From Deuterostichococcus epilithicus (taxonomy: Eukaryota > Chlorophyta > Trebouxiophyceae > Prasiolales > Stichococcaceae), in NCBI GenBank assembly GCA_033439295.1, contig JAVTLE010000023.1, positions 4,190,530 through 4,254,529 of the forward strand: 64,000 nt of DNA. Reading direction: 5' to 3'. The position numbers and the translations under genes were made by a program. A model generated the notes under the pieces. It was given only the letters and a program-made list of their open reading frames with translations. It was not told the origin of the DNA and ran no database searches. Numbering within the stretch: the stretch's first letter is position 1; every line of letters starts with the position of its first letter. Positions 1-61,700 of this stretch are shown piece after piece.

Positions 1-3000
1 GCCGCGGCGCTGCTGCGGCGACACCCACCGCCGCGTGTGGAGGCCTTCGCCGAGGTTTGTCAAGTTCTCCTGAACTGTGCTTGAGCACAGGGCACCGGGC
101 TACATCCATTCCCAGTGCAGATGGAGCCTGCGACGGGCCTTGGACCGCTGTGCTTGTGCATGCATGCCGCCTAACTCGGTCAAGTGCGACTCCCAGGTTG
201 CTGACGAGCACTTCACGGGGTCAGGCGGCGTGTCCAGGAAGCCGGAAGTGCATTCCCACCCTCTGCGGTGGCAGTACCCAGCACTGCGCACGCACGCTGA
301 AGCCTTCGCCCGGATTTTGTGCTTTGCTTGCGCTCGCTGTCAGAGCCCATCCGCAGTAAAACGCCTAGCCAGGGACTAGAGTGGTGCAGTGCTGCGACGA
401 GAGCCCGCTGCAAAGTGCTGCACCTGCCACTGAGCAGCGTGCCATAGATTTGCAGCTCTCGGTGTCGTTTGTCACACCCTCAATCCGAAGGCGGAGAGAC
501 TGACTGCAGGCGGAGAGCCTCCTTCAGTCAGTGGCTTTGCGCTTGACGCCAGTCTCCTGCTGCAGACCCTCAGACCTTGTTTGAACCCAGCAGAATCCTG
601 GTGGAGAACATCCTTCAGTCAGTGGCATGGCGCTAGACGCCAGCCCCCTGCAGAACTCCAGCACAACTTCAGACCCTGCTTGATGTTCGTCAGCCTTTCG
701 TCTGGGGTGATGTTCGTCAGCCGTGTTCTTTAGCCCTGCAGGTGGGGGGCATCCTGCAGGCGGCGCGGCTGACACTCGACGCCGCTCCCCTATTGCGATT
801 ATGCCAAACCTATTTGCACCCCGTGCTTTTCCAATTCACCTTGAACCCTGCAGGTGGAGGGCATCCTGCAGGCGGCCGGGCTGGCGCTCGACGCCAGCTC
901 CAACCGTGCGCTGGCGGCCTCGCTGGCGGCGGTCGCGGCCGCTTCGCCAGAGTCGGCGTCGCTCGTGCGTGCCCTGGCGACGCGTGCCATGTCCGAGGCG
1001 CAGTACTTTTCGACAGGTGACCTGCTGATGCAAAATATGTCGCTGCTCAAAGGCAGGGCTGGCGCCAACCGGCGGTACCTTTGCATGATGTGGGTTTTGA
1101 ATTGTTAGGCCGGGCGTCAACGACCCATTTGCTGTGCACGAGCCGCATCACTCTCCCACATGAGGGACCTGCTAGCTGCTTCCTAGAGCGTTCATAACAG
1201 CGGGCCAGCGGCTGAGCTGCTGCCGTCCATTCCCAGGCCGAGCTGGCGCCGCATCGCACATGCTCAAGCCTGCAATGTCTCCAACCTCCGCTGTGTCGCA
1301 GGTGAGGCGACACGCTTTAGCGACGGCGGCGCCGGCCACTTCGGCCTGGCGCTGACGCACTACACGCACTTCACCAGCCCCATCCGCCGCTACGCCGACC
1401 TGCTGGTGCACCGCCAGCTGCTGGCGGCCGTGGCAGCCGACGGCAACATCGGCCCGGGTGCGCACTGCAGCACATAAGCCTATTTCGTGCTAGGATGGGC
1501 ACATGTGAAACTTCGCAAATGCTCAGCAGCACGTGCAGCCGTCCAGCTCGAGCTGGTGCTGCTCTGCTGCCGGGGGCTAGCGGCTTTGGCAGCCTGCACC
1601 GGACATGGACAACGGTACAGGTGTGCACAGGAGCACAGGGATGAGGTAGGGCTGTTTAATACCATCTTTGTGCCGCCGGAGCACAGGGATGAGGTAGGGC
1701 TGTTTAATACCATCTTTGTGCCGCCGGCCAACCACACCATAGGATGTCCAGTCACAAGTCGGACGTCAAGATCACCAGGACCCAAGTGTCGGAAAATCAA
1801 AACCCGCAGGCCCGCAGCCGCCGGTGCGCAGCGGCGCGCTCGCAGCGGCGGCGGCGCACCTGAACGACGCCACGCGGGCGGCGAAGCGCGCCCAGCGCGA
1901 CTGCTCCGACCTGTACCTGCTCCTGGCGCTGCACAGGCGCGCTTCACACCAACAATAAAAGAGTGTGTCGTCTGGATGTCTGAGTGAAGGTGTTGACAGC
2001 CCAGCGCGACTGCTCCCACGCGGGCCTGCTCCTGGCGCTGCACAGGCGCGCTTGAAACACAATTGTAAGCATGTGTTGTCTTGATGTTGGCACTGCTGAA
2101 TAGAGATATCGCCGCCCGGCGCGGCTGCTCCGACATGTGCCTGCTCCTGGCTCTGCACAGGTACGCTTTACACATGACTTCACATTGTGTTGTCTAGATC
2201 TCTGGAAGATATTGCAGTCCACCGCGGCTGCTCCGACCAATGCCTGCCCCTGACGCTGCACAGGCGCGCGTTCCTCGTTCTGGACTTCTCGTCGGTTGCT
2301 GCAAATGACAGTGAAGCTCGCCGGTTGGGACTCGGTTGGGACTTGGGTGGACACTCTCTCGCTCTTTTCTTGCCGCTGGCGGCGATGTTGCAGACACCGA
2401 ACATGCCGGTCGGACACTGGGATGCCACTGGAAGTTCGTTGAGCTTGTTGCTGTGCAAAGACCCGCACTTAGAGGCTGGGTCGGCAATGCGGAGCGCCCC
2501 GGCCGGCTGCTGGTGTGTTGTGGTCACCAATGGCACTCACTGACATGTTGCATGTGGGTCAATGCTTGCATCTTGTCCTGCAGGAGGCCGCACGTGGAAG
2601 CAGGGGTGGTCTACGCCGTGCGCCCCGACCGACTGCTGGTTTTTGTGCCAGAGTACCACATCCGGGGGACGCTGCGGCTGGCAGATCGAGACGGGGTGCC
2701 GGTGCCGCCGGAGGCAGCGGAAGGGGAAGCGGAGGCAGAGGCGGCGGGACGGGACGCGTTTGCTCTGGCGGCGCGGCGGCGGCTGCGGCTCGAGACGGGT
2801 GAGCTCGCACCTCGCGCTGCAGGATGCACTCGACCATGGGCAGCAGGGGCCGGCAGCGCTTCCAACAGCGGAGGAGGTGGCTGAAGCGAGGCATGCCGGC
2901 CTGGCGCAGGATTGCGAGCACAGACGGTTGCAGATGTGAAGAAAATCAGCTTCAGGCCCTGTCGGACATGCTCAAGGTGGCCAGCAGTGCCAGCTGCACG

Positions 3001-4002
3001 GCTTGGACGTGTCCGAGTGCTCAGCCGATGCCCAACCCTCTGTGGCATCGCAGGCGAGGGCTGGGCGCGGATGAGCGACGGCGACGGCAACACCCTGCTT
3101 GACGTCCGGGCGCCGGCGCGTGTCTGGCTGCGGCTGTCCGCTGACGCTAGCCGCGCGCACGGCCCTGCCCTGAAGCTGCGGCTGCTGTCGAATGCACACC
3201 CTGCGGCGGCGGCGGCTGCGCAGGCTGCCGCCGNCGGGCAGCGGGGGGTGCAGCGGGGCGGCGGAGCGGACGCCGCGGCGGGAGCTGCCGGCCCGGGAGC
3301 CGCGGCGGCGCCTGCAGGCGGCGGCGCGGACGAGGGCGAGGCGTTCCCGTGGCTGGCAGGCGTGACAGGTGGCGACCCGCCGCGCAGTGACGGTCAGCGG
3401 TCGGCGCAGGGCGAGGTCCCGGCGGCAGGCGAACCAAAACCAGGTGGCAGCGCCAGGGGCGGCCCGGCCGGCGNGCCTGCGCGGACACGGTGGCCGCGGC
3501 GGCGGCGGGCCGGCCAGCATCGCGGCGGCGCTGGCGGGGCGCTGCGCACGGCGGCGCGGGCGGGCGGGGCGGCCCGCCAGCCGGCGGCTGCGCCGCTGCT
3601 GCGCGGCGCCCCGCCCTCGCGGCATCAGCACCTGGAGGAGCTCTGGGCGGCCCAGGTGATCCTGGGAAATCTAATGATCTCGGAATCTCACCGTCAGCGC
3701 CATGCTTCTGGTTGCACACACTAACGCAACAGCACCCAGCGCTGCCTCTTGGTGGACCCGGCATGCCCTTGCCTCTGAGCATCTCGGGGAATAAGCCGGG
3801 AGGTGTGGATGCCTGGGGAGCACGCCTGCTGCATCCCTGTGAAACTGCCATTGCGTACTTGCAGGCTGCATGCAGCCGCTGCACAGCCGTCGTCACCCGC
3901 GGCGGTGGGCGCGGTCCCAGGGCTGCGGCGCGGCGGCATGCTCTGGAGGCGGCACGGGAACAGCTGTTGCGGCTGCGCCTACCAGCCGCGAACGGCGCCT
4001 GA
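1..4002 (+). CDS. DIS3: DIS3/RRP44 exosome 3'-5' exoribonuclease, 5' partial
   Basis: Catalytic subunit of the RNA exosome (RNase II family), which degrades and trims nuclear and cytoplasmic RNA from the 3' end. Exons in frame: 1-54, 854-1016, 1302-1457, 1810-1936, 2584-2798, 3054-3655, 3865-4002 (484 residues visible). The first exon encodes LLRRHPPP, the second ends with [16 protein letters not shown], the third carries the RNB motif [19 protein letters not shown]. These match the end of the RNB domain in eukaryotic DIS3. Exons 5-6 ([28 protein letters not shown]) are the S1 domain. A long Ala/Gly-rich low-complexity stretch, containing two N bases, follows and is unlike animal DIS3. The PIN and cold-shock domains lie left of the window. 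Intron 4 needs a GC donor (CAG|GCGCGC). Introns 1 and 4 contain decayed copies of neighbouring exon edges. Confidence 0.93.
491..903 (+). repeat. Acceptor-side exon-edge echo ladder, DIS3 intron 1
   Basis: The real acceptor and exon start at 854 (CAG|GTGGAGGGCATCC, then CTCGACGCCAGC) is preceded by copies starting near 742, 601 and 510. The 742 copy keeps the acceptor and most of the first 50 exon bases. The 601 and 510 copies are more diverged but keep GACGCCAG and CATCC/CTCC. Spacings are about 112, 141 and 91 bp. Confidence 0.85.
1631..1726 (+). repeat. Exact 48-bp tandem duplication in DIS3 intron 3
   Basis: Two identical 48-bp units, 1631-1678 and 1679-1726, directly head to tail. Identity suggests a recent event. 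Confidence 0.95.
1885..2268 (+). repeat. Donor-side exon-edge echo ladder, DIS3 intron 4
   Basis: The last about 50 bases of exon 4 (ending CTGCACAG at 1936) recur three times downstream, ending at 2045, 2160 and 2263. Spacings are 109, 115 and 103 bp. The copy ending at 2160 is followed by GTACGC, a canonical donor, while the real exon is followed by GCGCGC. Confidence 0.9.
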
Positions 4003-4305
4003 TGCGCTGCGACAGCTGTCTCCACCTGAACAGTCGCAGTCGAGCACTGCAGGACATCTCGTCTGTTAGCGGGTTCCCGTACAAAGCGCCTAGAAAGTTC
4101 CTGTCTTTGTCATCCGACCGCAGATCTTCCCGGGTGACACGGCAGGGAAGCAGTTGCCACCCAGCTTCCTCAGACGACAAGTGAAGTTTGAAGTGCGGCT
4201 CCAGACGCAACATATTGACACTTGCACACTCAATTCACACCTACAGCTCAACAAACCAGCAACCTCTTTCGCCTGTCGCTTTATCCACTCACTACCACAA
4301 CAACA

Positions 4306-5265
4306 ATGGCCGGAGACAAGAGCATCGGCCAGCAGGTACGCAGCTGGCGCGTGCGCGCAACCCGCACTTGCCTTATCACGCACATGAACATTCTGCTCGT
4401 GTGCCATGCTATATCTCTGTCGCATGCATTGCAAGCGCTGTATGTGTGTCGCATGCATTGCGAGCGCTCTTGCCTTGCATGTGTCGCCATAGGCTTGTCT
4501 GTGCGACAGCGTGCCTGCTTCTTCACTTCTTGAGGAACATCACACCGATGCCTTTGCAATGGAGGCTGATGCCTGAGTATTACTACATCCGCAGGCCCAG
4601 GACGCGGCCGGTGCTGCTCAGCAAAAGGCCGGCGAGGTGAGCTGCCTTGTTCAGGCGCAGCTTTCCAGCTATGTCTCGCCTGCGGTGAAGCACAGCCATC
4701 ACGCCTTACACAGGCGGCTGCAGATAATGCTGTGCGACTGTATTGCATCGCAGTGCGCACAGCTGCACCACTTCAGACCACATTCATATTATGCTGACAT
4801 TATGTGCGCATGAACTTATTGCGCACCTTCCTTTCCTTAAAGGCGGCGAACTATGTGGGCGAGAAGGCCGGCCAGGCAAAGGATGCCGTCGTTGGCACCG
4901 CTGAGGACGCCAAGCAGGAGGGCAAGAAGCAGACAGGCAACCAGAACGCGGGCGACAAGGCCAAGGACGCGGGTGCGCATTCACTTCACCATGGTGCCAC
5001 GTACCAAGCTAGTGATTCTGCAGCCAGATCATGTGCAGGCTGTGTGAGCAGGACTACACATGCAGTCTACCTCTCAGCATGTATTGAAGCATTTTTTGTA
5101 TGCACCAATCTAGCTCGTGAACCTGAACGTGTTGTGTTTGCCCATTGTGTAGCTGGAACAGTTCAAGACAAAGCCTCGAGCGCCGCTGATACAGTGGGCC
5201 AGAAGGCGAACGAGACGAAGGACGCTGCGGGCAAGAAGGCCGAGGAGACCAAGCAACAGATCTGA
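4306..5265 (+). CDS. hiC6-like LEA protein, 104 residues
   Basis: Small hydrophilic Lys/Ala/Glu/Gln-rich late-embryogenesis-abundant (group 3) protein. Relatives such as Chlorella hiC6 are induced by cold hardening and protect enzymes and membranes during freezing or drying. Exons: 4306-4335, 4595-4636, 4843-4972, 5153-5265. Starts MAGDKSIGQQ, then 11-mer-like segments such as EKAGQAKDAVVGTAEDAK and ends AGKKAEETKQQI. There are no membrane segments or cysteines. The length matches hiC6 (about 100 residues). The first ATG follows a CA-rich leader (ACAACAACA), a good initiation context. A TGTAA polyadenylation motif lies 78 bases after the stop. A second LEA gene of the same family lies at 51.6-53.2 kb. 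Confidence 0.9.
4419..4468 (+). repeat. Short direct repeat in LEA intron 1
   Basis: GTCGCATGCATTGC(A/G)AGCGCT occurs twice, near 4419 and 4448. Confidence 0.8.
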
Positions 5266-8169: not shown

Positions 8170-9667
8170 ATGCCCAACGCAGTTGAGCCGACCATGACGG
8201 CTGCCGTGGCTGCAGGCGCCGCTGTTGCCACAGAGCCGCCACCGTACCGGCAGCTCTCCCAGCCGATCTACAGCCTCAGCACCAACCCCGCAGGTGCGAT
8301 TGCCCGTAGCTGGTCCCAGTGACATCATGTGTTGTGGACGCTCCGCAGCCTTCGCTCAAAAGGTAGCGCATGCACCGGATCAACCAGCTGCTCGCTCCCG
8401 TCATGCAGGCCCGGCGGGGCGGGCGACCATGAACATTGTGACCTACGCATCGCCGGTGGCGCTGGCGCCGCCGGTGTACGCTGTTGGCTTGTACAAGGGG
8501 ACCCAGTCGTGGGAGAACTGGCGGGTCAGCGGCAAGGGGCTTCTGCAGGCAGGTGCACACTCCTAGAACACACGGTCAAACGTGTACGGCTCCCGTGCAT
8601 GCGAACGTGGCGCGCTGGCTGTGCATCCGCCCCGCTGCAAGCTGCGCGCTGGTGTATCAGGCCAGACAGGGTGGCAATGACTGTCGTGTGCACCTGATTC
8701 CTGTGCATATGCCTTGGGTTTGGGTGCGAATGGTGCGAGGGTGGCGGTGTGCGCAGGCCTTCACGCTGCCGGCTGAGTGCAGCCCTACCATCAACCTTGT
8801 CGGCTTGGTGTGGCATAGAGAAATCCGGAGCTCCGTGCTCTGCTGCCAAACCTCTGCTGCTCTTCTCGTGCAGGTCCTGCGGCGCAGCTTGCTGAGCTGG
8901 CGACGCTTTTAGGCATTTAAGCTACAAAAAAACGTGCTCTTGCTGTGAAACTTTGAAAACTCCGCTGTCGCCTGCCGTGACGATTCTGCGGCGGCAGCAC
9001 GCTGAGGCGGTAATCCTACTGGGGCACTACGCTGCTGAGCTCTGCTCTCCTGTGCAACCCATGAAACATCTGCTTCCTCGTGCAGATCCTGCGGCAGCAG
9101 CACGCTGAGCTAGTCTCGCTGCTGGGCAAGACCAGCGCTCAAGACGTGGACAAGCTCGGCCGGCTGGCGGCGGTGGGCTTTGCCACTGTCGACTGCTTTG
9201 GTTACCAAAGCCTGGCAGGTGAGCAGCTGCAAACATCGAAACCCTGCCAGATTGCTGGCTCATCAAATTGTTGAAGCTGTGGGGTGGCCCGATCGGCGTC
9301 GCAGCACACAGCTCAGTACGAGAGCTGCATGGTGTGCGCCAATGTCAACGACTGTCGTCTGCTGACACAAGGCACCATCCTTGTGCAGACTGCGCGGGCG
9401 TGATGGAGCTGCAGCAGTTGGGCGACCTCGTTGATGCCGGTGTGGCAACGTTGCTGCAGCGATGTGTCGATCAAGGGGCTCACCAAGCAAGCTTCAATGC
9501 TTGCAAAGCAAATTTGGTTCTCAGCATGCCGCCCCGCATGACGGCGGCTGTCTGTCTGCACAGGGGATCATGAGGTGGCGCTGTGCAGTGTGGGGCGGAT
9601 GCAGAACGTGGATGCAGAGGGAGAGGTGCTGTACACAGACTTTCTGCGATCCGGCGGCTACATCTGA
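8170..9667 (+). CDS. Flavin-reductase-like (FMN-binding split-barrel) protein, 183 residues
   Basis: Exons: 8170-8293, 8409-8548, 9086-9218, 9389-9439, 9564-9667. All phases agree. Order of motifs: YSLSTNPAG, GRATMNIVTYASPVALAPP (the FMN-pocket segment of flavin-reductase-like domains), YAVGLYKGTQSWENW, GKGLLQILRQQHAELVSLLGK, DCAGVMELQQLGDLVDAGDHEVALC (the GDHEVALC strand is diagnostic). Such proteins bind FMN as small dimers and transfer hydride from NAD(P)H or act in redox stress; the substrate here is unknown. The N-terminus is Ala/Thr-rich and could be an organelle transit peptide, unproven. Intron 2 must use a GC donor (CAG|GCAGGT) to reach phase 0. It contains two decayed copies of exon 3's start. 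Confidence 0.85.
8845..9115 (+). repeat. Acceptor-side exon-edge echo ladder, flavin-reductase-like gene
   Basis: The exon start at 9086 (CGTGCAG|ATCCTGCGGCAG and the preceding polypyrimidine stretch) has earlier copies with boundaries near 8873 and 8980. Spacings are about 107 and 105 bp. The 8873 copy retains an intact CAG acceptor; the 8980 copy has lost it (CGTGACG). Confidence 0.88.
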
Positions 9668-26359: not shown

Positions 26360-26421
<62 letters not shown>

Positions 26422-29400
26422 CGCCCCGGGACTCTGCTACAGGTCGGAGGTGCCGTCCCGCAGCGGGACTCGGCGACACTGCTGCAAACCCTAAGCCCTA
26501 GACCTGCCGCACCTGCGGCAGCCCGTACTTCTTGATGTTGTCGGCGGACGCGGCGGCGAAGGCAAACTCCTGCGGGTGCGCCGCCATTGCGCGGATGGAC
26601 TTCTTGTGGTACGTCAGCGTCGACAGCGTCTTCCCCTTGCGCAGGTCCCACATCTTGATGGTTTTGTCGTGGCTGCCGGTGATGACCTGCGCAGGCGCGG
26701 CGGGCACGGCGTGAGGTTTGCACAGCCAACACGGCGCCGGACGCTGTTCCGGCAGGCCTTCTGAGTGTGCTGCGAGCCTACGCAGTACAGGCTCTGTGGC
26801 GGCGGCGGCAGCGCAGACGGCAGGTGGTCGTGAAAGGCGCCCGCGTGCGCGGGCACGGCAGCTCAGCGATGGCTGGCGCAACGGCGGCTCAGCGGGCGCA
26901 GGCGGCAGGTGGTCGGTCCAAGCCCAAGCGCTTGGGCGTGCAGGCACGAACAGCAGTGCAGCGCTGATCGTTTCACGCATGGCACATTCAGAGCATCCTA
27001 CATTGCGATTCGAAATTGCACCTGGGGATCGGCGCCCTGCGTCAGAATGGAGGCCACCGTCTCGTCGTGCCCGCTGAGGCAGTGCACCTGCGCCAGCAGT
27101 CATGTGCGGGGTGAGGTCAAGTCTCCACAGGCACAGCGATGGTGAGGAGCAGTGGGTCCTTCTCCCAGTCCTTCTTCCACTTCTTTCTGCGTGCAGAGTC
27201 AGCAGAGCCTCTGTCGGTCCGACAGCTGAAGGCGTTTCCTGGAGGAGGACAGAGCCCTGAGTCCCGCGTCCGGAAACCTGTCCACAAACCCTGTATAACC
27301 ACTCGCCTGGACTTTGGTGCGCATGTCCCAGACGCGCGCCACGGAGTCGCGGCCGCCGGTCACGATGACGTCCAGCGTCGGGTGCAGCGCGAGCGAGTAG
27401 ATGCCGCTCAGGTGGCCGTGGTACTGCCGGATGACCTGCGGCAGCAGGACGTGGGTTTGATTTCCTGTCTTTATCTCGATTTTTTTTACTTTATTTTACT
27501 TCTATCTCTCAAAAGCAGCTTGCAATGAGCACAAACGTACGACTCTTCTGGCACTTGCCACGGTGCCTCAGGAGCACCGGGCGACCAAGATGCGTCATGT
27601 GAGCCACTGCCGGGGCAACTCATGGGCATCGAAATTCTAGAAGTAATTGGGCAACGCTGCACACAGCGCCCCTCGGCAGCAGGCGGCGCCCGCGGCGCAC
27701 GCTTGGCGGCGACGCTGTGCAGCATGCACGCGCGTGCCACAAGAGGTGCAGCAGATGCGCGCGGCGACAGGAGACACGGCAGCAGTGTGAGCGACGTAAC
27801 ACTCAGCCCTAAACCCTAAACCCTACTTGCCTTGTTGTACTCCAGGTCCCAGCACTTGACCTCCTTGTCGAGGGAGCCGGAGAACATGTACGGGTGGCGG
27901 TCCGACACCGCGATGCCCGTTACCTGGCGTACAGGTGTGAGGTTTCAGGTTCAAACCCTGAGCACTATTTTGATGATGTGTTCCAGGGGTTGCAGGGTCG
28001 CCAAGACGGGCTCACTGGAGCGCTGCACTGCCCAGTGCCGGCGCGGGTGCCAGATGGTTGCGCAGCAGGGGGCAAGCGCACATGGGCGCGGCGCACGTGG
28101 CAGTACTGTCTGCATGCACAGCAGGCGAGCAGCGGCCCACCTGCTCGATGTGTCCCGTTAGCGTCAGCTTCAGCTGCCCGCTGGCTGTGTCCCACACCTG
28201 CAGCAGACGAGCCACAAATTTGGAGCGTTATTGCAAGGCGCCCGGTCACATCTGACGTTGCAATTGCTGTCGGCATGACGCTGCGCGGTGCCCGCCATGT
28301 TTCGAAGCCTGCCTGTATGGGTGCCCGCATTCACGAGGGGATGCGGCGGCGCGGCTCACCTTGATGGTGCGGTCTGCCGACCCGGTCACGAACCACTCGT
28401 TGCCGTGGTCGAAGGCCATGCAGCGCACCCACCTGCGCAAAAGCACGCAGTTTCCTCTCAACTGTCAACAAAATCATTCTTGATCAAATATCACGCACGT
28501 CACAGGGCCGGACAGCCTGTGCAGCAGTACCAGCACGAAATTGCTGGATGCATTCCATCAGACCAGCAGCCCAGCTGCGAGCCTGCACCCTGCGGCATGG
28601 CGCAGCGCGCCAGCGTCCCCCTTTGTCAGGCAGCACCGACGATGAGTGCCATCTCCCAGGCGCAGGCCGAATGCTGAGCGCTTTTCCCATGTGGCGGAGC
28701 ATACGGCCATCGGACCACCTCGCTGCCAGGGACTTGCAATATCACAGACATGTGCTGCGTGAGGTGCCGTCCCTCACACCCTAAACTCTCACCCCAGGTG
28801 GCCGGCGATGACGCGGTACAGCTTCCAGGGCGCATGCCACACCGGGCGCGGCCACTTGCTGGGCATGCGGCGGGCGACAGCGGCCGAGGGGCGGTACTCC
28901 TCCTGCCCGCCGCCTGCCTTGGGCACCACCGCGCCGCCGCCGCTGTGCAGCACCATCGCCTGCGCCTTCTGCCGTGCCGCCGCGGCCGCCCTGCGCAGAG
29001 CCGCCGGCACCGCATTGCAGCACGTGCTGAATGGTGATGCGGTCCAAGCACTCGCGATTTGCGAGTATCGAGAGGCTGTGTGTGCAGGCTGGGTGGGTCT
29101 CAGGAAGGACGTCGGCTGCATGGCTCCAAGAGAGCCTTTGGTACCAACGTGAACGCTTTCAGGGTTGAGCTGCCGTCAAGAGGGAGCTAGCCAAGGTCCC
29201 AAAGCCGCGGCACTCACCCGTCGGACACCTTCGGCATGGCGTCGATGAGCTTCGCCGTGGCGGACCTCGACTCCACCTTGGCGCCTGTGGGCGCCGCTGC
29301 CCCCGCGTCCAGGTCCGATGGGGCAGCGCCGGCTGCAGAGGCCGCCGCTGCGCCGCCGGCCCGCGCGGCGCCGGACTCCGGTAGGTTGATATCATCCAAC

Positions 29401-33500: not shown

Positions 33501-36500
33501 CGCCCTCGTCGACGCTGCGCTGCAGTGCACGCACTGTTCACACTAGAAACCCAGCAGGTGCTGTTGCTGGGATCCCTGCACAGATGCCGTCATGGTGTCC
33601 AGCGGCAGTGCACAGGCGCACCTTTGCCCTCATCCTGCCAAGCGCTGCGTCGCAAGGCGCTGCATCGCACCACATACAAGGAGACACAAATGACGTGACG
33701 TGAATGAGTGAGACATGCATTGCCGCCGCCGCGCAGGCTGCAGGCGCAGCTGCTCGATGAGGCGCCCGGGCGCGCGGCGGAGGCAACGGCGCTCGCGGCG
33801 NATGCCGCGGACCGCGCCCTGAACGCCCAGGCGGCGGCGCTGGCAGCGTCGGAGCCGCCCGACGTGCCGGCCGCCCAGGTGGGCCTTGTTTTCGGGAATT
33901 TCAAGCGAAATCATGTCCAAGCAGTGTTTGGTCAGTGTGCCCACTGCCTGTGCCCTGGCTGCCGGTCAGGTTTCGGCGCTCTGAACTCTGGGTGTGTTTC
34001 GAGCCTGCTGCTTCGACAACATTGGCCACTTATATTGTCATCAGGCGGTGGCTGTTCACCTGTGCCTGTATTCCCACCCTCCAGTGGCTGCGTCCCTGGT
34101 GATGCCGTGTCCTCACGAGATGCGAATACGGACGCCGCTCTAGAGAGAGAGAAAGATTCCACAACCAGTACCCCTTGTACCAGATTGTACCAGGTTCCAG
34201 GGCCAAGGGCCCCTTGTACCAGTTTTTGGCTCGCTTTAGGCTGCCTTTACCTAGCTGGAGGTTTTGCACATGCCTGAATGCTCTGATCCGCATGCCGCAG
34301 GCGGAGTACGGCGGTGCTCGCCAGGCGCTGCTGGCAGCGCTGCTGCGGGAAGCCGAGCGCCTCCTGCGCGCCGGTGAGCAACCCTGCACATCGGAAACGC
34401 TCTGGTGCCTGCACGCAGCCAACGCATCCGGCCTGCCCTTGAGCAGGCGCATTCCGCAGGTAGCGCCGCTGCCGGGCGGTGCTGCATCCGGTGCATGGCG
34501 CCCGCAGACCGTGCGTGATCCCTGGAGCAGCGGTGCTGGCAGCTGCGACATTTCACTACAATATACTTCTGTGTATCTCTTCCGGACGTGTCCACCTGGG
34601 GTGGCATGCTTGATTGCCATTCACTGTCCTGACAGGCGACGCCGCCGGGGGGCAGGCGCTGCTGCGCCGCGTGGAGTCTGCCGCGGAGGCGCACGCCGCG
34701 TTCCCGCAGCTCTTCGACGTCGCGGAGCTGCTGGGCGACACGGAGCGGCTGTTCAGCCACATGGAGGCGTTTCCCGGCACGCCGGAGCCGGGCTGGGGGC
34801 AGTCGGCCGCCGCCTACGTGTTTGACAGGCAAGTCGGTGTCAGGATGGGGCGTCCTCCTCCCTGCCAAACATAGTGGGCGGCTGCATGAGTCGTTGCAGC
34901 GGAGGGGGTGACGACACGTGTTACAACTCGCGGTCTTTGGGAGTCGCAACGGAAAGGAGCACCCGCGCGCCCTTGCAGGGCGGTTCGATGCCGCCGGCGG
35001 AGTTTCTGCAGCCTCTCCTGCGCAGCCAATGCCCCCAGCCAGCTGCGCCAGCAGTTCCAACAGTGATCAGAGTCGAAGAGTAACAGAAAGCGAGGACAAA
35101 GCTTCTAAACACCGACCTGGATCCACATATTTGCGAACGATCCTGCATGTCGTCAACACAGGCTGGAGGCGGAGGGCCGCGCCTCAGAGCTGCTGGACGC
35201 CCCGCAGCGCTTCGACAGTGACCTGAGCGCGTGGCTAGCAACCCCCGCCGCCGCGGGCCGCCGCGCGCGCCTCGCCTGGCTGCACCGGCTGCGGGTCCAG
35301 GACTACGGCGGCGCGGCCGCCACTCTGGCCGCGCTGCCACAGGCGCGGCACCATCCCCCTTCCTCAGCGTCAGATCGCATGAATGTTGTCGTGAACACCG
35401 CTTCCTTTCAGGGTCCGCTGACTCGAGCCACAGAAGCTGCTCCTGAACGCTGCTGTCGGCGCTGCATCACCTGTGCGGCGTGCGGCAGCTGCGCCCGAAG
35501 CCCCCACGTCTAGGCCAGGTCTGCGGTCTGCAGCCCCGAGGAGGTCCCGGCAACAGGTCAGCAGGCAGCAAAGACGCGCGGCGACGGTGTCACCAGTCGA
35601 TTCGCGAGCGCAGCAGAGCTGAATCGGCTCAGCGCCAGCCGCTTTGCCGTCAGCTGGCCGCGCGCATCGTTCGGGGCGACGCTCCATCACTGTGTCAACA
35701 GAGGCCACCTGGAAGGCAAGAGGGCCGGGAGCTGAGAGCCCGTCCGGACCTCTGATCGGAGCTCTGACCGTGCCCCGTGCTCGCAGAGGGATGCGGCGTC
35801 GGCCAAGCGGGCGCTGGCGCTGGCCAAGCTCGCAACGCTGGCGGGCGGCGGCAACGCCCTCGACCGGTCGGAGGCGCAGCCGGCGATGGCACAGGGGCGG
35901 CAGGCGCATGCGGCAGGCGGCACAGCCGTGGCAGAGCTGGACGGCCGGCTGTCGCTGCTGGCGCTGCAGGTGACCCTTTTGGCGCTTCCGTCGCCTCCTG
36001 GGTGTCGTTTCTGGGTCGGGCACGCGACTTCGTGTGGCCACCGCTTGCCGGCTGCTCTCCGGGTGGCTGTTTGCCCTCGCGTGACCCCACCGACCCAGCC
36101 ATAAACCCTCTCAAACATGCTGCAAATTCTAGCAGAAAGGTGAAGGTGCTGTCTGCCCGATAGCCTGTGCCCTCCTGCAAAGCCTGCTTGAAATCTGGCC
36201 GGCAGGAGGCGCCGGACGTGGGCGGTGGCCCACCGACGGATGCGGCGGCGGCGGCGGCATGCAAGCTTGAAACCCACTGTCAACCCTGAACCTTGCATCC
36301 CTTGCCGGCAGGAAGCGCTGGGCCTGGGCGGCAGCCTACCGAATGGGTGCGCCAGCAGCGGCTGCCCTGAAGCTTAAACCGTAGTGCAAACCCTGAAACT
36401 TGCATCATTTTGTCGACAGGAGGCGCTGGGCCTGGGCGGCGGCCCGCCAATGGACGCGCCTTCGCTAGCGGCGGGGGCGCTCGCCGAGGACCGCCAGGCG

Positions 36501-39893: not shown

Positions 39894-41210
39894 CGGCTGC
39901 CGCCCCGGCTTCCTGCGGCGCCGCGCCGGGAGCGCTGTTTGGTGCGCGGCGCTATCTGCCGGAATACAATGCTCACCGTGCAGCGGGCGGGTGCGTCGGT
40001 GCGTGACAGGCAGACCAAATTCACCGGCAAGATCGTAAATGGAGGGCCGTCTCAGAGCTTGGCAGTCATGTTCATGAATGAAGGCGTGCCACCCATGCGC
40101 CCCGCGGGCGGTCGCACCTGGAGCACGAATCGTCCGCTGCCTTTGGGGCGTCCTCGGAAGGGTCCTCCGGCGCGCCGTGCATTATCCGGCCAGCCGACAA
40201 ATGCTGCGGGAAGGTCGGCCTTGAATGTGTGGGTAGTGTGGATGGTGCCAACCTGCGCGAGAGCTTGCTTTCACTGCGCCAGCAGACTTTTGAAACTCCT
40301 GTGCTTGCGTGCGCTGGAAGTGAAAGAGGTTTGAGGATCCGTGCGCGGTTTTCTAGCGCGTGATACTGCAAAAGAATGGGGTTAGTGCGTTAGTCTAAGG
40401 TGACTCATTTCGCCAGGTAGAGGTCAGGTGACCGCGTACTTACAGGAGCAATACACTACAATACACAACATGTGCACGACGGTTCCTCGAAGCATGCTGT
40501 TGAGCCACGATCCAATCCAACTCTAAGGTCCCGCGCCAGCGGCACTCAACACTCTGCTGAACTCACTGCTGCTGCAAAAAGGGCAGCACGCATAACATGC
40601 GAAACCAAATGCATCTGAAACCAACAAGTGCGCAAAACAGGTTTGCGCAGAAATAACGACACAGCACCGAAGGAAGGAAACCAGCTGAGTGTTCCAGCAA
40701 GCACACCGCGCCAAGGCGCGCGCAAGGCATTGACAGCGGGACAACAGTGTCCAAGTCATGGGGCGGGGACGTCAGCGGCCGCGCAGAGTCAGGCGGCTCA
40801 GCCGTCGGTAGCCCCGCCCTCGAGACACCGCCCATAAGCATGAACCTAGAACGAATACTTTCAAGTCACGGGGTGGGGACGTCAGCGGCCGCGCAGAGGC
40901 AGGCGGCTCAGCCGTCGGTAGCCTCGCCCTCGAGACCCCGCTGGATCTAGAAACGAACAATCTTCCAACAGCAGTTGCAGGCCGGCAGGCACCGCCCAGC
41001 TGCTGTGGGTTTCCAGTCAAACTTCTGCTTTTTGAGATACTTTGACGCACTGCACTGGCGGCCTTCATATCGACCTGCTGCCACATGGAGTCGGCTGCTG
41101 GCGGCGCGGCGGCGCGCGGCCACCTGGGCGCATTTCAAGCGGAGCCGAGCCGGGCCGGCCTTGCTCTGCCTCCGCAGCCGGGGGCGGCCGAGCATCGCCG
41201 GAGGCGCGGG
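39894..41210. other. Spacer between the two membrane-protein paralogs
   Basis: Contains a diverged copy of paralog A's start on the minus strand (HGAPEDPSEDAPKAADD, about 40110-40180) and a two-copy 79-bp repeat at 40752-40940. No complete gene seen. Confidence 0.5.
40752..40940. repeat. Two-copy 79-bp direct repeat, spacing 110 bp
   Basis: Copies 40752-40830 and 40862-40940 differ at only about six positions. Each holds GGGACGTCAGCGGCCGCGCAG (GACGTC core). The minus strand is open through both (LPTAEPP, SARPLTSPP), so it could be a decaying exon duplicate. Confidence 0.9.
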
Positions 41211-50822: not shown

Positions 50823-50851
50823 CGGCGGAGCCAAGGAGGCACAGCCGTACA

Positions 50852-51615: not shown

Positions 51616-53191
51616 CTACTGCTGTGCCTTGGACTTGGCCTCCTCGGCCGCGCCCTTGGTCTTCTCCTTGCCCTCCTGTGCCTTGTCCTGCAACGTAAAT
51701 ATATTTTGCCACACCATCAGAAACGCGTTTCCGACCTTTGCCTGAGACCAACAGTGCTTGGGACAGCTGTAGTTTGTCTTCCCAAGCATGCATCCACGCC
51801 CGGCTGTGGGCAGGTCCACGTCCTGCAATTGTTGGCTGCTGCACTGGCTGTTGCACGAGCCCTGCACAGATGCTCCTACGCCAGCACTGCTGACTGCCTG
51901 TAAAGAAGCTCACCTGCGCAGTGCCGGCGGCATCCTTTGCCGAGCCCTTTGCCTCCTCGGCCTTCTTCGAGGCCGCGTCGCCAGCCTCGCCCGCCTTGTC
52001 CTGCAGCAGCAGCCAAACCCAGGTCAGTGGGTATGCGCAAGTGAGTTGCACCAAGTCCTGCTGCACCTGTGACATCTTCAACAACACACATTCAAAAGTT
52101 CTAGCTTCGTGATACACAGGACATCAGCGACATGCGATTACGACACGCGCAGCGAGATAGATGTGGCATACATAGTTCAGAGGACATGCCTGCGCTGTGC
52201 CTGCCACGTCAGAGGCCTTCTCCTTAGCAGCCTGCGCAGTGTCGCCCGCCTTCTCCTGTGCCTGCCCGGCGGTCTGCTTGGCAGACTCGGTTGCCTCGCC
52301 AGCCTTTTGCTTGATCGTGTCAGACGCCTCGCCAGCCTTCTGCTGCGTCTGCTCTGCTGTCTTCGATGCGCTGTCCTTAGCGTCGTCCTGCAGGACGGTC
52401 AGAAACAGCGGGCGTCAGACGCAGTCTACGCATACATACATGCAGCAGTGCAACAAGCAATCCCAACAAAGCATGACACGGAGCAGAGGAGAGCACTGCG
52501 AAGCAGCACCTTCAGCTCGCCAGCCTTCTGCGCTGTGTTCTGCGCAAAAGAGAATACAGGCACAGCATCAGCAAGTCTGTCCATGTCTGCAATTCTTGTA
52601 TGCTGTCAGTGCATCGTGTTGAGACATCTTGAAAGCATATCAAGTGCCTGTTGATGGTGATGAGTTGCGGAGAAAGCGACACGGAACAGAGGTTCAATGC
52701 GCATGTAAGAGGGGAAACCGTTGCCGTGGAAGAGATGGTCTCCTGGACATTCTTCGTCGCGTCCGCCACGGCCTGCGTCACAGCCGACGCCTTCTCACTG
52801 GTGTAGTCGACCGCCGACTGCACGGTCTCCTTGCCTGCGTGAACAGACATCGACTGGGTTGTAAGGGCAGACGGCCAGTCGCCATCTGGAACACCGATGC
52901 AGCGAGCGCACGCAGGACCAGGACGGCAATTGATTCTCAGCAGGACCGCCGCAAGTGCCACAGCGTGCATGAAAGCTGCGAGGCGCGAGGCGCGGCAACA
53001 GCTTGGACCTTTCGGAGTTGAAACGGTGCGAGCAGCGAATGCCTCGGCGCCGCGGCATTCCCGACTATGTGGCTTGCAGCAGTGCACATGATTTGATGGC
53101 ACAGACTTAGAGGCAACAGAACGGTGCTCTCGGCGGCGCACAAAAGACACGGCAAGAACGCACCCTGCTGCACGTAGGACTTGTCCGCCAT
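51616..53191 (-). CDS. LEA group-3-like protein, 174 residues
   Basis: Exons (high to low): 53164-53191, 52725-52834, 52510-52539, 52190-52387, 51914-52000, 51616-51687; phases agree. Starts MADKSYVQQGKETVQSAVDY. The body is a run of 11-residue amphipathic repeats of the A-x-x-K-A-x-E type (QKAGEASDTIKQKAGEATE, QAQEKAGDTAQAAKEKASD, SKKAEEAKGSAKDAAGTAQ), ending EEAKSKAQQ. No Cys or Trp. Such proteins are unfolded in water and fold into helices when dried or at membranes; they protect during cold and desiccation. It belongs to the same broad class as the gene at 4306-5265 but is longer with more repeats. Each exon from 3 on holds roughly whole repeat units. Introns 2 and 4 need GC donors (ACG|GCAACG, CAG|GCATGT). 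Confidence 0.88.
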
Positions 53192-55739: not shown

Positions 55740-58700
55740 TCAACTCACAGCATTGGGCGTGCACTCCATGTTGGCGAGACGCTTCACCACAGCGGCGATG
55801 CTTGCGACGACGCACACTGACACACACGATTCCCGAGGCACACTACAACAAGGATATGATCCCAGGAAAAGATGCCCACCGTGGATCTCGGCCACGCCAT
55901 TGCACAGGCTCAGGCTGTCGCAGTAGGCCGGGTACTTCAGCAGCACGAACCAGGCACCCTGCACAGTGGAGGGGGAAACTGGTGCAGTGAGCACACGGTG
56001 CTTGTGCAGCAGCACGAACCAGGCGCCTCCCGCAGCGGACCATGCACAAGAACGATGTGAGCAGGCCAGCCGTGAAGCGCCCGCAGCTATGCACAGCGTC
56101 GGGTGGCCAGCAAAGCACGCCGGGATAGAGTGGCGCTGCAGTGCCGCAGCGACACTGGCATGAAGCGCAGGGCTGCAGAAATAGGCTCCATAACACCGCC
56201 GGCTCAGGAACCGCTATATGCAGCAGCCTGTCGCGGTGCTGCAGCACTTTCGCTCAGGCACTGCAATATCAGCACCGCGACAGGCTGCTGCATATCGCGG
56301 TTCCTGCGCCGGCAGTGCTGCGGAGCCTGCGGCACGAGGCGCCGCCGCATCTCAAGATGCGATGGAAAACACATGGCAGCATGCTGCCGCAGCTCTGGAG
56401 CTTGTGTGGCACACAGTCTGCTGCCGGTCAGAGCACACCTGCACCGGCGTCAGGATGCGGCGGAAGACCAGGTAGTCCAGCTCGCTCGCCAGCCGCTGCT
56501 CCTCACTATGCAGCGGGCCAAGAAGAAGGGGTCAACGTCAGATCCGAACAAGCTACAGGGCGCACCATGCAAGGCGGGTCAATGTCAGATCCGAACAATT
56601 GATATTGCATGTGGGGAGAGGTCAGCATCCCCGAGTGGTGGTGCATGATGCGCTGGCAAACGGCAGCATGCAGCACACCGGAGGCAGTGCTGCAGCCGCA
56701 TCGTGCAGGCCGCCGATGTGGCTCGCGCAGCGGTGACACCAGAGGGTGGAAGGGTCGTAAAGGGACTGAAAGCTGCAAGTGTACGGTCTGAACAAGCTGC
56801 ACCTGAGGTTGTCCTTGAGATTCTCTATAGAGTCAAACTCAAAACTAAAGCAAGGTTTGTCACACTGGTCTGAACAAGCTGCACCTGAGGTTGTCCTTGA
56901 GCTTCTTCATGACGTCCTTTTGGCGGGAGGCGTGCTTGGAGCGGTGGAACATGGACGGCAGCCAGCTCTTGGCGCGCTCCACGGACATGCTCGGCGCGGA
57001 GCCGCCCCGCTCCTGCGGCAGCTGTTTGGCCACGGCACAGAACAAGGAGGTTGGTTCAGGAACGGTGCCAGGGAGCGGATCAGCTCGGTGCAGGGCCGCC
57101 CTGCTTTCTATGGCAGCAATTTTGCAGCGGCAGTGCTAGATGGGGTTTCAGGTGCTGCACGAGCAGGGAACAGTGTCAGGGAACGAAACACATGCTCAGA
57201 GTCGTCACGCTCCTGCTGCAGGCGCTTTGCAGCACACCTAGGGGCAAGGTTCGAACCTTGCCCCTAGTTGTGACTCGTCACAACACCTGCAGCTGTGCGG
57301 CAGCAGTACCGAAGGGAGTGTCAAACAAGCAGCAGGTGACAAGAGGCGGCCGGCATGCAGCTACAGTCAAACCTGCTTCCTGTGCTCCGAAAGATAGATC
57401 GACCTCGAACAAGCTGGGGAGGCAGCAGACCCCGCACCATCACAACGCCGGACCCCAGATTCGGCCTGGCGCCGGCTTTCCGATCCACCGAATGCACAAT
57501 TCGGTGTTGGGTATAGAGAAACACTTTTGTAAGTTTGCACGGGTGCCGCCCGGCACTCACCAGCACGGAGATGGCCTCCAGGTTGACCTGGCGCCGGTCC
57601 TCGTAGATGCGGTGCAGCCGGCGCAGGTGCTCCCGCCGCACGCCCAGCACCTTTTCCGCCTGCTCCCCCGTGAACATCATCTTGCGCGCCGCCTCCGCCC
57701 AGCGTCGGTTGGTGTCGTGCCGCCCGCTGGACCTGGGAGGCCGCAGGGGGAGGGAAAACTGTCAGGCCGTGTGCGTGGAGTGCCGCATGTGTGTGGTCAA
57801 ATGCGCCGCCGTCCGCTCAGCGCCAGTCGGCGCTGTGCCGCCAGCTGGGCCGGCAGGGTCGCGAGAGCCGGCGACGGGTGTCCTTCCACCTTCCCTCCTT
57901 GGCGCTGCTCCACAGAGTCTCCCCTGCCTGCGAGTCCCGGCCCTGCCCCACCTCGCAACAGCAGCGGGCACGAGGCCAGCGCCGCATGCGCCCAACGTCG
58001 CCTTCAATGCTCCTGCAACCCCCTCTAAGGACTCCAAACAGCATGCCGGCCCACCTAGTCGACGGAGGCGGACACAAAACCGGAGCTGTGAGCGCCCTTC
58101 CATGCGGCCGTGCATGACTGCGACAAAGAGAGCACGCCTCGTCCCGGCCCCTTGCACCTTCAGAGCCGCTGTCCTGCCGGCAACCCTGCCCGCGTGGTCC
58201 AGTCCTCAACCCTGCCCGCGTGTAACCCTGTCCACACTCGATCATAGGTGCAGCCGAGCCCCATGGTGGCCGCGCGCAACCGCTCCATGCGCACGAGTGG
58301 TTGACGAAGATTTCCCCATGGTCTCCCAGTGCAGTCTCAGCTGTGGGGCTCCAAGAAAATGAGCTAATGCACACCTCTCGATGGAGGCGGAGACCAGTCC
58401 CGCGGTGTGCGCCCCCTCCATGCGCAGCGCGCGCGAGTGGATGTTGTTGACGGTCTCCACGAGCTCTGCCAGGCGCTGCAGCTGCGCCTCCGGCGCCGTC
58501 GCGCCATTGATGTCCGCGCCGTCGCGGTTCTCCAGCGCATGCTTCTGCAGGATGTCCCGCAGCTCCCGCACCTGGCAGCGAGCGCAGAAGGCTTGACACA
58601 GTCTGTGCCGCCAGCCAGTTGATCCTGACAGCGCTGCTGCGGCGCCCTTGCAGATCTCCGGTGCGCGCGTCTGCACGGATTGCCTGCCATGCGTTGTGAC

Positions 58701-61700
58701 CTGACGACGTGGTTACGCTCGAGACCCAGCTGGCAGCAGCAGCCAAGCCCAGCTGCGCAGCGGGCGCTTTCCCAGCCAGTGTACCCTGAACCCCGGCCCA
58801 AGGCAGCGCGGCCCTTGACACCGCCGTCCCAAGGCGCCGCCGCGGCCATCCCCTGACCGCCAAGCCTGCAAGGCGGCTGCCGTGCTCCTGATGACGGCAG
58901 CGAGTTTGACGCGACGCTGTGCATGTTGTCTGTGCGTGTTGCCTGTGCAGCAGCGCGCACCGTGGCCTGGTAGGTGGACGACAGCTCCTCCAGCTCCTGC
59001 TGCGAGGTGGGGCCCTCGTCCGCCTTCGGCACCTCCAGCACGCGGCCGCTGTTGGTCTTCATGTACGCCGGCTGCGCCGCCTGTAATTGATATACTATCA
59101 TGTCATATATAACATCACATAAAATATATATATTTAAATACTAGCTGTTCGTCCTCGTGTACGCCGGCTGCGCCGCCTGCGGTGTGCGCGGGCGGTGTTA
59201 GAGGGTCGCACGGCAGCGGCGGCGGCACAGGCCTGTCCGGGGCCGGGACACAGCGCCCAGGGCGCCTCGAGCCCGAAGCCGCTGTTGCCGTCTGGTGCTC
59301 CGCCCGGCAGCAGGGAGATGAAGCATCCGTCTGGGCGGATGCAACCTACTGTGCTGAGCGGCGATGCCCTGCAGGGCTCCCGCAGCAGGCACTCATGCTC
59401 CTCCCATACATGCGGCCCTTCTCTCATGTTGCTAATGATACACAGCCTGCTATGGCTTTGCTGAAGTTATGCCTCCCTGCTCCCACGGAAGTCGTGCAGT
59501 CCCAGCCCCTCTCCTTGCGCACCCAGCCGGCTGACGGCCTTCCCATTACACTTGCTGGGAAATAGAGGGTTTTCAAATAAAGCTCCCGGCTGATGAGCAT
59601 GGAGCAGTCACCTGCACCCGCAGCAGCCGCTCCAGCTCCTCCTCGTGTGCACCTAGCCGGCTGACGAGCCGACCCTAAACCCTTGAACTGTCAGGCCTGG
59701 GAAGATTCGTCATGGAGCCAGCGTCACCTGCTCCCTCAGCAGCCGTTCCAGCTCCTCCTCGCGCGCCCGCAGCTGGGACACCAGCGTCAGGTTCTTGTCC
59801 TGCAGGTCCGCGTTCTCGGCGCGCACGCACTGCATCGTCTCCAGCTGCGTCGACAGCGCCGCGACCGTGTGCTCCAGCTCGCTCGCCTTGGCCTTTTTGC
59901 GCTCCCTGTGTCGAACATGGATCGAACCAAAAAAACTCTGAGTGATTGCGCGGTGTGGGCAGCTGCTTGAATCGGTGGACTTGCACACTGGACATGCACA
60001 GTCTGTGGGCCTGCCGGCCTGATGCTCAGCTTTGCCCCTGGGACACGCAGGGGTGGAGGATCTCAGGAGCCGCTGCAGCGAGCAGGGGAGCACTGAGATG
60101 CAGCCTCCGTCGCGTGGCTGTGGGGGCTGTGAGGCGGCCGCACGCAGTTGCTGCTGCCAGGATTTGAAGTTCCGACGGTGGCTGGCATTGCCGGGTTCAG
60201 GATTCAGACTACCCCTGAAGCACTGTCTCGGGGGCGCACGCACCGGTAGCGCTGCTGCGCCTGCTTGTTCAGCATCTGCTGCCGCAGCGTGCGGTGCCGC
60301 CGGTTCTTGGTGGTCCCCATGCCATCCTCGCCCATGCCCTCCATGTCCTCGCCATCTACTTCCTGCGACCAAGAGACGAAGTAGGATGTAGCCAATCATG
60401 TTCCATCTCCATGCCCTCCATGTCCTCGCCATCCACTTCCTGCGACCAGGCAAGGGGCTGTAGGTATTGATGTCCTTTGCCCACTGTCTGACAGTTGGTC
60501 TGCCGTCGGCTCTCTACGAGCCGGGGGCGGCCAGCCGGGCAATGGCCTCCCTGTCATGCAGTCGTGGCTGGGCCAGCAGAGCAGCTGGTGGGGGGCCGGC
60601 GCCAGCGGAGCAGCGAAGAGCGGGTCTGGGCATGGCTAGGCTTTCCTGTGCAGATGGACGCTGGGCATCGCCTGGCCAGCGTCCATCAGCAGAAGGCAGA
60701 CTGGCCATGCCGTCAGGGGTGGGGCAGACCGGGCCTGGCGGCAAGGTCATGCCCAGGGTTCTCATGCGGCATGCACAGGCCCCGCGCCCGGGGGGGGGAG
60801 ACCTGGAACTGGGCATCGTTGAACTCGTCGCTGCCGCCGGAGACTGCAGTTTGCGGCGTGCCGGTGTTGGGCGACACCGAGGGCCGCGGCTCGCCTGCGG
60901 CCAGCACGTGTTTGCTCTTGTCAACTCTGAAAACCGGATACGAGAGTGCTCATGCAGGCGACTCGCCTGCGGCCGCCATTCCTCTGATGTCTTGAGACAA
61001 CAGCACATAGGGTTGGTGTCTGGCGGCTGCAGCTCCAGTTGTCGCCCTGGGAATGATAGTCCCATGGCCGCTGACACCCACGGCACCTGCCCGGCAACTG
61101 GCTCGCAGGTCCTCTTGGAAGTGCGCCGGGCAATGCAACCTGCTCTGCGGGCGTGATCTGCAAGCAAGGCAGGCTGACGAGCGATTGACTGGATGCCTGC
61201 CGAAACCCTGCCGAATTACCTGCCAGGCGGTCGTAGGTGTTGGAGGCTTGTCCGGCGCGGCGCGCCGGCGGCGGCTGCATTGCACCGGCACCTGGCGGTG
61301 GCTGCGGCGAGTTGAACTGGCTCTGCGTCCCATTATGCTGCCCCTGTACCAGCACATCGGGCCCATTCGCATATTGCGAGTTGCCGCATGAGCGCTCTGG
61401 AAATCAGGCCTGCCAGCTGCGGACGGTGTGAGGGTGTGGGCACGGCAGCTGGTGATGCAGCCGGCAGGCTTCCTGGGCAGCGCTGATCTGTTCGGCACCA
61501 GGCCCAAGCTGCTAGTCCACTGTGCACTCGCAGGCTGGAGGCAACACCGGGCGGTCACTTCCCCATGACCGCTGCATGCCAGGCCGGGCGCACCAGGCCA
61601 AACTGGCTGGGGTCGGGCGGCGTGGAGCCGCTTGCGAGCACGATGCGCTGGTTGGCGACGCGGCTGGGTCCGCCGGGCGCCCCGCCACCGAACTCCGGCT

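Follow-up and report, generated by a model that had tools for sequence, protein, structure and literature searches.

Exon edges copied into neighbouring introns in four genes of Deuterostichococcus epilithicus, possible footprints of local break repair

In a 64-kb stretch of the genome of the green alga Deuterostichococcus epilithicus (contig JAVTLE010000023.1, positions 4,190,530 to 4,254,529; hereafter the window, with positions counted from its first base), the beginnings and ends of exons reappear, together with their splice sites, as direct copies within the adjoining introns. These copies, which we call echoes, lie mostly about 100 bp from the exon edge that they resemble, are concentrated in four genes, and are separated from the exon by spacers that are on average AT-rich. 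We tentatively favour the reading, to which we give slightly less than an even chance, that the echoes were left behind by local break repair, initiated by a staggered break or by paired nicks, in which filler DNA was added and the product was kept by splicing. The analysis is confined to this single window, and its exon borders were predicted from the sequence.

The window has a composition of about 60% GC, short exons and a eukaryotic build. Exon prediction relied on a self-trained codon model, which gave 47 segments in a strict version and 84 in a looser one, and hand corrections added to the predicted exons resulted in the 73 coding blocks used for edge counts. The original prediction had placed echoes in genes that it named DIS3, flavin-reductase-like, Nup133 and bZIP. 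The first of these is a DIS3L-like exonuclease gene, with an RNB domain in Pfam (E 1e-20) and DIS3L1 as its top match in the PDB (E 5e-26), and the bZIP gene has a bZIP_2 match just over the cut-off; both names therefore hold, the former as DIS3L. The flavin-reductase-like name barely passes, with a match just over the cut-off (E 4.9e-6). The Nup133 identity is suggestive only, as the Pfam match lies under the cut-off (9e-4) and the two PDB matches, both to Nup133, have E values of 0.74 and 1.

Short-range repetition was measured by gapped self-alignment (scoring +1/-1.5/-3) at offsets of 40-400 bp, with ten scans of equal width at far offsets (1-30 kb) as controls. A looser scoring (+1/-1/-2) was dropped as its alignments strayed through GC-rich coding DNA, and a blastn self-comparison overlooked pairs near the diagonal. 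In the near range, 36 pairs scored at least 17 against a control mean of 0.2, and 33 pairs scored at least 18 against 0.0, so the predicted echoes do exist. The density of ungapped matches per bp of offset was 0.2-0.6 at 70-140 bp, zero at 140-175 bp and 0-0.008 past 500 bp. Many matches lie at offsets below 140 bp and others at about 190-345 bp, the latter being partly second-order pairs inside ladders, in which one exon edge has several echoes. At the 14 edge loci described below the spacing is 69-125 bp with a mean of 102 bp, which agrees with the predicted local direct duplication at roughly 100-bp spacing; two additional edges carry echoes at 226-228 and 318-320 bp. Orientation is strongly one-sided, as 47 sequence tiles have a nearby direct match scoring at least 18 and only 2 have an inverted one, both in one hairpin. 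This direct orientation fits fill-in at broken ends and does not fit capture of a randomly oriented template; template capture in either orientation was rejected on the grounds that inverted copies are limited to that hairpin.

A pair was assigned to an exon edge when 10 or more bases of one copy were coding and no more than 30% of the other copy was. By this definition the 41 pairs scoring at least 16 at offsets of 40-400 bp comprise 25 edge pairs, 11 noncoding pairs and 5 pairs in which both copies are coding. Among the 36 that are not both coding, the 25 edge pairs compare with 10.7 expected from random placement (p 2.5e-4). For a count per locus, 25 pairs (score at least 16, offset 40-150 bp) were reduced to 18 loci by removal of four echo-to-echo pairs (starting at 509, 33308, 33392 and 59502) and of three pairs due to low complexity or protein repeats (26360, 52242 and 63764). 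Edge loci make up 14 of these 18, while random shifts, either confined to 2-5 kb or spanning the entire window, give 4.3-5.1 (p <= 1e-4). Two of the 14, at 2463 and 55938, depend on hand-corrected exons: the one at 2584 had its start set by hand, a choice backed by the DIS3L alignment, and the exon at 55958 was called by eye once its echo had been noticed. With uncorrected exon predictions the edge loci still number 12 of 18 for the loose set (p 3.5e-4) and 10 of 18 for the strict set (p 0.001 with local shifts, 5e-5 with global shifts). The splice junction falls inside the aligned copy at 13 of the 14 edges, the exception being the exon at 2584, where the copy starts a few bases within the exon. 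Echoes of acceptors are found upstream of their exons and those of donors downstream. The edge-directed search covered those sides only, and the self-alignment pairs, which carry no bias of side, agree with this predicted arrangement on reading.

The pattern had originally been attributed to frequent local tandem duplication of about 100 bp with no preference for place, visible beside exons because the exon copy stays conserved. One element of that proposal is borne out, namely that the conserved exon copy keeps old echoes visible: all four non-edge pairs are 94-100% identical, as if pairs lying within introns vanish first, and identity is below 92% at 10 of the 14 edge loci. To quantify such visibility, uniform duplications were simulated, rejected inside exons and then aged with constrained coding and freely decaying noncoding sequence. 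The share of edge loci among visible pairs was 0.16-0.32 over 14 settings, compared with 0.78 seen (0.67 with uncorrected exons). The probability of at least 14 of 18 edge loci was 6e-8 to 8e-5 in 8 of the 14 settings, and that of at least 12 of 18 was 0.003 at the highest simulated share of 0.32. Uniform duplication combined with visibility bias was rejected on the strength of this simulation. The proposal is further opposed by the absence of edge loci outside the four gene blocks and by the structure of three bZIP loci, both described below. Ordinary tandem duplication, by replication slippage or unequal exchange and with later divergence of the intron part of each unit, is nevertheless favoured by a true 107-bp tandem array at 36195-36460 and by a donor ladder in the DIS3L-like gene in which similarity continues into the intron part. 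As a general explanation we regard it as rather unlikely though of appreciable weight.

A preference of duplication for GC-rich targets was also simulated. With targets restricted to GC of at least 0.70-0.75, the edge share rose to 0.40-0.48 for tracts of 36-80 bp and to 0.70-0.81 for units of 80-125 bp; at the threshold of 0.70 it was 0.70 with the 80-125 bp units (P 0.33) and 0.40 with the 36-80 bp tracts (P 0.001). GC-directed duplication was rejected as a sole cause, since it works only with whole 80-125 bp units of GC of at least 0.70 and the AT-rich spacers oppose it. A GC preference may be a partial factor in the edge share.

The structure of the copies is clearest at three loci of the bZIP gene, which lies on the minus strand. 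Donor echo J (56785-56824) repeats the edge of the exon ending at 56885 with 39 of 40 bases identical (22 exon and 18 intron bases) across a 42-bp spacer of GC 0.36 (56825-56866). Acceptor echo N (60409-60448) repeats the edge of the exon starting at 60362, again with 39 of 40 identical (9 intron and 31 exon bases), across a 37-bp spacer of GC 0.43 that is unlike the copies (60372-60408). Acceptor echo L (59144-59179) matches the exon starting at 59080 at 33 of 36 bases across a 60-bp spacer of GC 0.15 (59084-59143). In all three, the copies are 36-40 bp long with abrupt ends, and the 37-60 bp between them are AT-rich and unrelated to them. These loci are not whole-unit tandem duplications, because the remainder of a duplicated unit would have stayed alike at an age at which the copies are still 92-98% identical. 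A unit as long as the spacing, as expected of plain tandem duplication, is absent from J, N and L and present in the 36195-36460 array and in a 48-bp repeat at 1630-1727, while at older loci divergence obscures the unit; a local copy with unrelated filler, as expected of repair duplication, is found in J, N, L and a noncoding pair at 40752, and the other loci are unclear in this respect.

An AT-rich composition also characterizes the spacers as a group. The 14 primary spacers have a mean GC of 0.469; the corresponding value is 0.596 for 111 other edges of introns (p 4e-5) and 0.577 for 31 such edges in the genes concerned (p 0.0013). Conversely, direct repeats flank 10 of 86 AT-rich islands with GC of at most 0.37, compared with 11 of 456 noncoding segments taken at random (p 5e-4). 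For islands with GC of at most 0.30 the figures are 4 of 22 and, for random segments, 14 of 442 (p 0.008). The repeat-flanked islands are loci already listed, so this island test is not independent evidence. Primary echoes contain about 21-64 exon bases and mostly 0-20 intron bases; those that reach deeper into the intron belong to the donor edge at 1936 and to the acceptor edges at 9085 and 36419.

Several edges carry ladders, all of the following on the plus strand. In the DIS3L-like gene the exon at 854-1016, which is supported by the coding model, the RNB domain, the PDB match to DIS3L and splice sites that were read, is the source of acceptor ladder A. Its echoes are A1 at 728-788 (87% identical over 62 bp, shift -112), A2 at 600-647 (78%, shift -253) and A3 at 504-557 (76%, shift -344), with A3 being 85% identical to A2. 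The exon at 1810-1936, with donor AG/GC, is the source of donor ladder C, consisting of C1 at 1999-2058 (shift +109), C2 at 2114-2173 (shift +224) and C3 at 2217-2276 (shift +327). The junction is GC at the exon donor and GT at the second echo, and GC in place of GT is predicted at several donors of the window (1936, 27831 on the minus strand, about 31638, and 35342). A third exon of this gene, at 2584-2798 with its hand-set start, has a start echo at 2463-2522 (75%, shift -125). The flavin-reductase-like exon starting at 9086 has a near acceptor echo at 8976-9006 (shift about -103 to -107), which has lost its AG, and a far one at 8857-8898 (shift about -213 to -216).

The Nup133-like block, likewise on the plus strand, has acceptor echoes at 31383-31414 for the exon starting at 31479 (shift -94) and, for the exon starting at 33059, an acceptor-side echo at 32841-32888 (83%, shift about -228) whose junction lies outside the alignment. 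The exon ending at 33213 has a donor echo at 33301-33345 (87%, shift +122) that keeps its GT (GTAAGC) and a farther one at 33491-33539 (shift about +311). Upstream of the exon starting at 36420, two acceptor echoes occupy 36195-36365 in units of 106-108 bp, as found by Tandem Repeats Finder (TRF) and by self-alignment. This is the clearest true tandem array, for which TRF gives 107 bp. In the bZIP gene (minus strand) the remaining echoes are donor echo M of the exon at 59905-59728 (59607-59669, shift +116, spacer GC 0.57), a donor echo of the exon ending at 58375 (58049-58106, 76%, shift +318), acceptor echo K of the exon starting at about 57731 (57803-57857, 79%, shift -117), an acceptor echo of the exon starting at about 57021 (57083-57132, 74%, shift -95), and, for a putative exon that starts at about 55958, a short acceptor echo (56007-56027, spacer GC 0.60). 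The spacer of M (59670-59722, minus strand) contains GGGTTTAGGG, which we take to resemble the plant-type telomere repeat, a likeness that could be due to chance.

The edge loci are strongly clustered by gene. They occupy 3 of 10 edges in the DIS3L-like block, 1 of 4 in the flavin-reductase-like block, 3 of 20 in the Nup133-like block and 7 of 18 in the bZIP block, or 14 of 52 edges together, compared with 0 of 94 in the rest of the window (Fisher p 1.5e-7); measured against an assumed 28 edges of quiet genes with Pfam support, the difference has p 0.0015. All 14 fall within the blocks of the four genes originally named. The exon at 55958 could be part of the gene neighbouring bZIP. Neighbours that are devoid of clear edge echoes include a WD40 gene and an ELMO-domain gene. 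A more sensitive search edge by edge found z above 3 at 18 of the 54 edges that belong to the four blocks, compared with 7 of 102 elsewhere (p 4e-5), with mean z of 5.7 for bZIP (n=16), 3.9 for DIS3L (n=14), 3.3 for flavin (n=4) and 2.1 for Nup133 (n=20), and of 0.24 in 9.6-30.5 kb (n=47) and 0.66-1.07 in other stretches outside the blocks. Weak signals with z above 3 that were not counted as loci occur inside the blocks at the donor edges 848 and 57558 and the acceptor edge 3537, and outside them at the acceptor edges 5194, 23725, 41193, 51619, 51902 and 63270 and the donor edge 51902. Several of these weak edges resemble repetitive coding sequence by eye; the acceptor edge 23725 does not. 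A distinct intron length or GC content in the four genes was considered and rejected, as their 22 gaps have a median of 433 bp and GC of 0.608, compared with 380 bp and 0.597 for 45 gaps elsewhere. With GC equal in both sets of introns, GC fails to explain the clustering.

The divergence of the echoes bears on whether they are maintained. A steady increase in divergence with distance from the exon, as had been predicted, is clear at 4 of the 9 edges with several echoes (acceptors 853, 36419 and 59081 and donor 33213), and the other 5 are flat or unordered. Mismatches between echo and exon, taking the best echo at each of 15 edges, fall on codon positions one to three at 34 of 219, 23 of 217 and 45 of 211 sites (p 0.01). 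This mild third-position excess is the pattern expected of an unconstrained echo beside a coding exon, and weak constraint on the echo is also possible. That echoes are selected as decoy or backup splice sites, or as parts of alternative exons, would be in keeping with the retention of AG or GT/GC at the junction in several echoes, with the enrichment at edges and with aligned intron parts that are no more diverged than exon parts. We nevertheless consider such selection improbable, given that the third-position excess is only mild, that 3 of 14 spacings are multiples of three and that echo L reaches an in-frame TAG. Intron gain by AGGT tandem duplication would have the duplication form both ends of a new intron. 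The end of one exon was paired with the start of the next in none of the 41 pairs scoring at least 16 at offsets of 40-400 bp, a check that the 400-bp limit restricts to shorter introns.

The layout of copy, spacer and copy also brings to mind short mobile or introner-like elements that insert near exon edges and generate unusually long target-site duplications, an origin to which the AT-rich, foreign-looking character of some spacers would be suited. No spacer family emerged when the 22 spacers were compared with the window, although the window alone could miss a family of low copy number, and the duplications vary over about 20-80 bp compared with the 3-9 bp of earlier introner families as given by Gozashti et al. 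2022 (PMC9860276). We therefore hold a mobile-element origin to be quite unlikely. An assembly artefact, in the form of unmerged overlaps or collapsed haplotypes, is the least credible explanation and in our view highly improbable: the 7 undetermined bases mark the window as draft sequence, but none of them lies inside any listed echo, the copies at edge loci differ by 2-26% and the spacers are mostly unique.

Break repair followed by splicing could generate the observed arrangement as follows. A staggered break, or two close nicks on opposite strands, would fall over an exon edge, and fill-in on both sides followed by rejoining would leave two copies of the overhang (a tract of 36-40 bp at loci J, N and L) in the same orientation. 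Between them would be joined a short filler, in many cases AT-rich, that was either untemplated or derived from elsewhere. Were the tract wholly within an exon, the insertion would spoil the protein and be removed by selection. Were it to include the splice site, the copy contiguous with the exon would stay in use, and the other copy and the filler would become intron, adding about 70-125 bp; copies bearing splice sites would thus survive, with splicing removing the surplus copy and its filler. Later slippage or unequal exchange could amplify such copies into regular ladders, and the echo would drift while the exon copy stays conserved. A shared exon boundary, as expected from amplification of a unit, is found within 3 bp at 4 of the 9 edges with several echoes (48/48/48 at acceptor 853, 47/48/45 at donor 1936, 53/55 at acceptor 36419 and 46/46 at acceptor 57732).

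Several observations weigh against this break-repair reading. The exon boundary differs among echoes at the other 5 of the 9 edges, and two of the loci, the 36195-36460 array and the 48-bp repeat that starts at 1630, are simple tandem duplications. Two edge loci of high identity, 55938 (20 of 21) and M (36 of 39), have spacers of ordinary GC (0.60 and 0.57), which would suit tandem duplication. The search of the 22 spacers against the window found no convincing source for the filler; the 36195 array has two spacers that match one another, and other spacer matches within the window have E of 0.015 or weaker. The AT-rich spacers may moreover reflect which fillers permit clean splicing and not how the filler arose. 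Intron parts of the alignments are no more diverged (25 of 190) than exon parts (102 of 647), unlike the roughly twofold divergence expected in intron parts from the free decay of both intron copies; a local-alignment cut-off together with constraint near splice sites may explain this. The near-absence of copies in intron interiors means that an exon-directed or GC-directed bias must be added, and the clustering by gene is left unexplained. Some of these points would be accommodated by an active, gene-focused process, in which breaks favour exons or junctions of certain genes, AT-rich filler is added and splicing shields the result. If breaks were directed at exons and purely exonic events were then lost, the scarcity of copies in intron interiors would be explained. 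We consider such a process unlikely on present evidence; if true, introns would lengthen from the splice site outward by about 100 bp at a time, with the functional end repeatedly renewed.

Four of the 18 loci lie away from exon edges. They comprise the exact 48-bp tandem repeat, which has no spacer and lies in a DIS3L-like intron (1630-1727, plus strand); a GC-rich 20-bp repeat (19 of 20) with copies 85 bp apart, maybe of low complexity (26811-26915); a pair of 80-bp copies with 94% identity that flank a 30-bp spacer of GC 0.37 (40752-40941); and a 23-bp repeat (22 of 23) with copies 47 bp apart upstream of a predicted exon (56529-56598, minus strand). The second and third have no assigned strand. 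The duplicated 80-bp block at 40752-40941 is GC-rich, holds GACGTCA, lies outside predicted exons and has the same build of copy, AT-rich spacer and copy as J, N and L; it probably sits in a promoter, perhaps a divergent one. An inverted repeat at 56183-56328, with 59-nt arms that are 90% complementary and 28 nt between them, lies amid predicted exons of the bZIP region and is possibly a foldback element or a structured RNA; an Rfam search gave no match at gathering scores.

Two further kinds of repetition occur in the window. A perfect (GCA)20 microsatellite at 26360-26419 lies between predicted exons of a WD40 gene. Contig searches with a WD40 protein of the window, which we take to be PLRG1-like, returned a cyanobacterium record as the sole locus and nothing usable from related algae. 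Repeats that we presume to be LEA-like from their style are encoded in two separate stretches, 4840-5253 and 51619-52835, and the internal protein repeats of the latter produce self-matches in which both copies are coding.

Tandem duplications in plants have reportedly been treated by Vaughn and Bennetzen (2014) and by Schiml et al. (2016). Repair-mediated duplications in vertebrates, as described by Pace et al. 2009 (PMC2671141), are local copies at breaks with filler of 1-68 nt, and the echoes resemble them in being short local copies with filler. Donors in that vertebrate set include partial exon/intron pieces, although these are 4 of 824, and an exon copied in the opposite orientation is described there, whereas most loci here are at exon edges, direct and in some cases arranged in ladders, with a mechanism drawn from one sequence. 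Fill-in of staggered ends by Pol alpha-primase and CST gives short direct duplications (Schimmel et al. 2021, PMC8355091); that work concerns induced breaks in human and mouse cells, and its abstract mentions neither exon edges nor AT-rich filler. Models of intron gain by tandem genomic duplication or break repair, as reviewed by Yenerall and Zhou 2012 (PMC3443670), likewise have a duplication or repair insertion absorbed by splicing with the protein unchanged. They differ in placing a new intron inside an exon, whereas the echoes extend introns that are already present, at splice sites already there, and no new intron was seen in the window. Introners, as presented by Gozashti et al. 2022, share the removal of an insert by the spliceosome, and some introner families duplicate their target; unlike them, the echoes involve no repeated element within the window, far longer duplications and reuse of an existing splice site. 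The direct repeats near intron borders reported by Rogers and Bendich 2025 (PMC11782384) are 4-30 bp with a mean of 11.4 and come from comparing the two borders of an intron, whereas the echoes are mostly longer, concern one edge and are partly serial. For the long introns of Chlamydomonas, a published comparison (PMC8226300) gives the driving mechanism as unknown.

The ingredients of the pattern are already known elsewhere, and no description of exon-edge ladders was found among the papers listed in searches of an open-access library that omits most subscription journals. The lengthening of introns seems to us less well documented than their gain or loss. If the pattern proves to be genome-wide, exon edges would constitute a natural recorder of local break repair in which the coding copy serves as the reference, and the ages, sizes and fillers of many repair events would be readable from one genome. 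Introns would grow stepwise from their splice sites, the sequence adjacent to those sites would be renewed and cryptic sites would accumulate. The echoes may reveal how introns grow.

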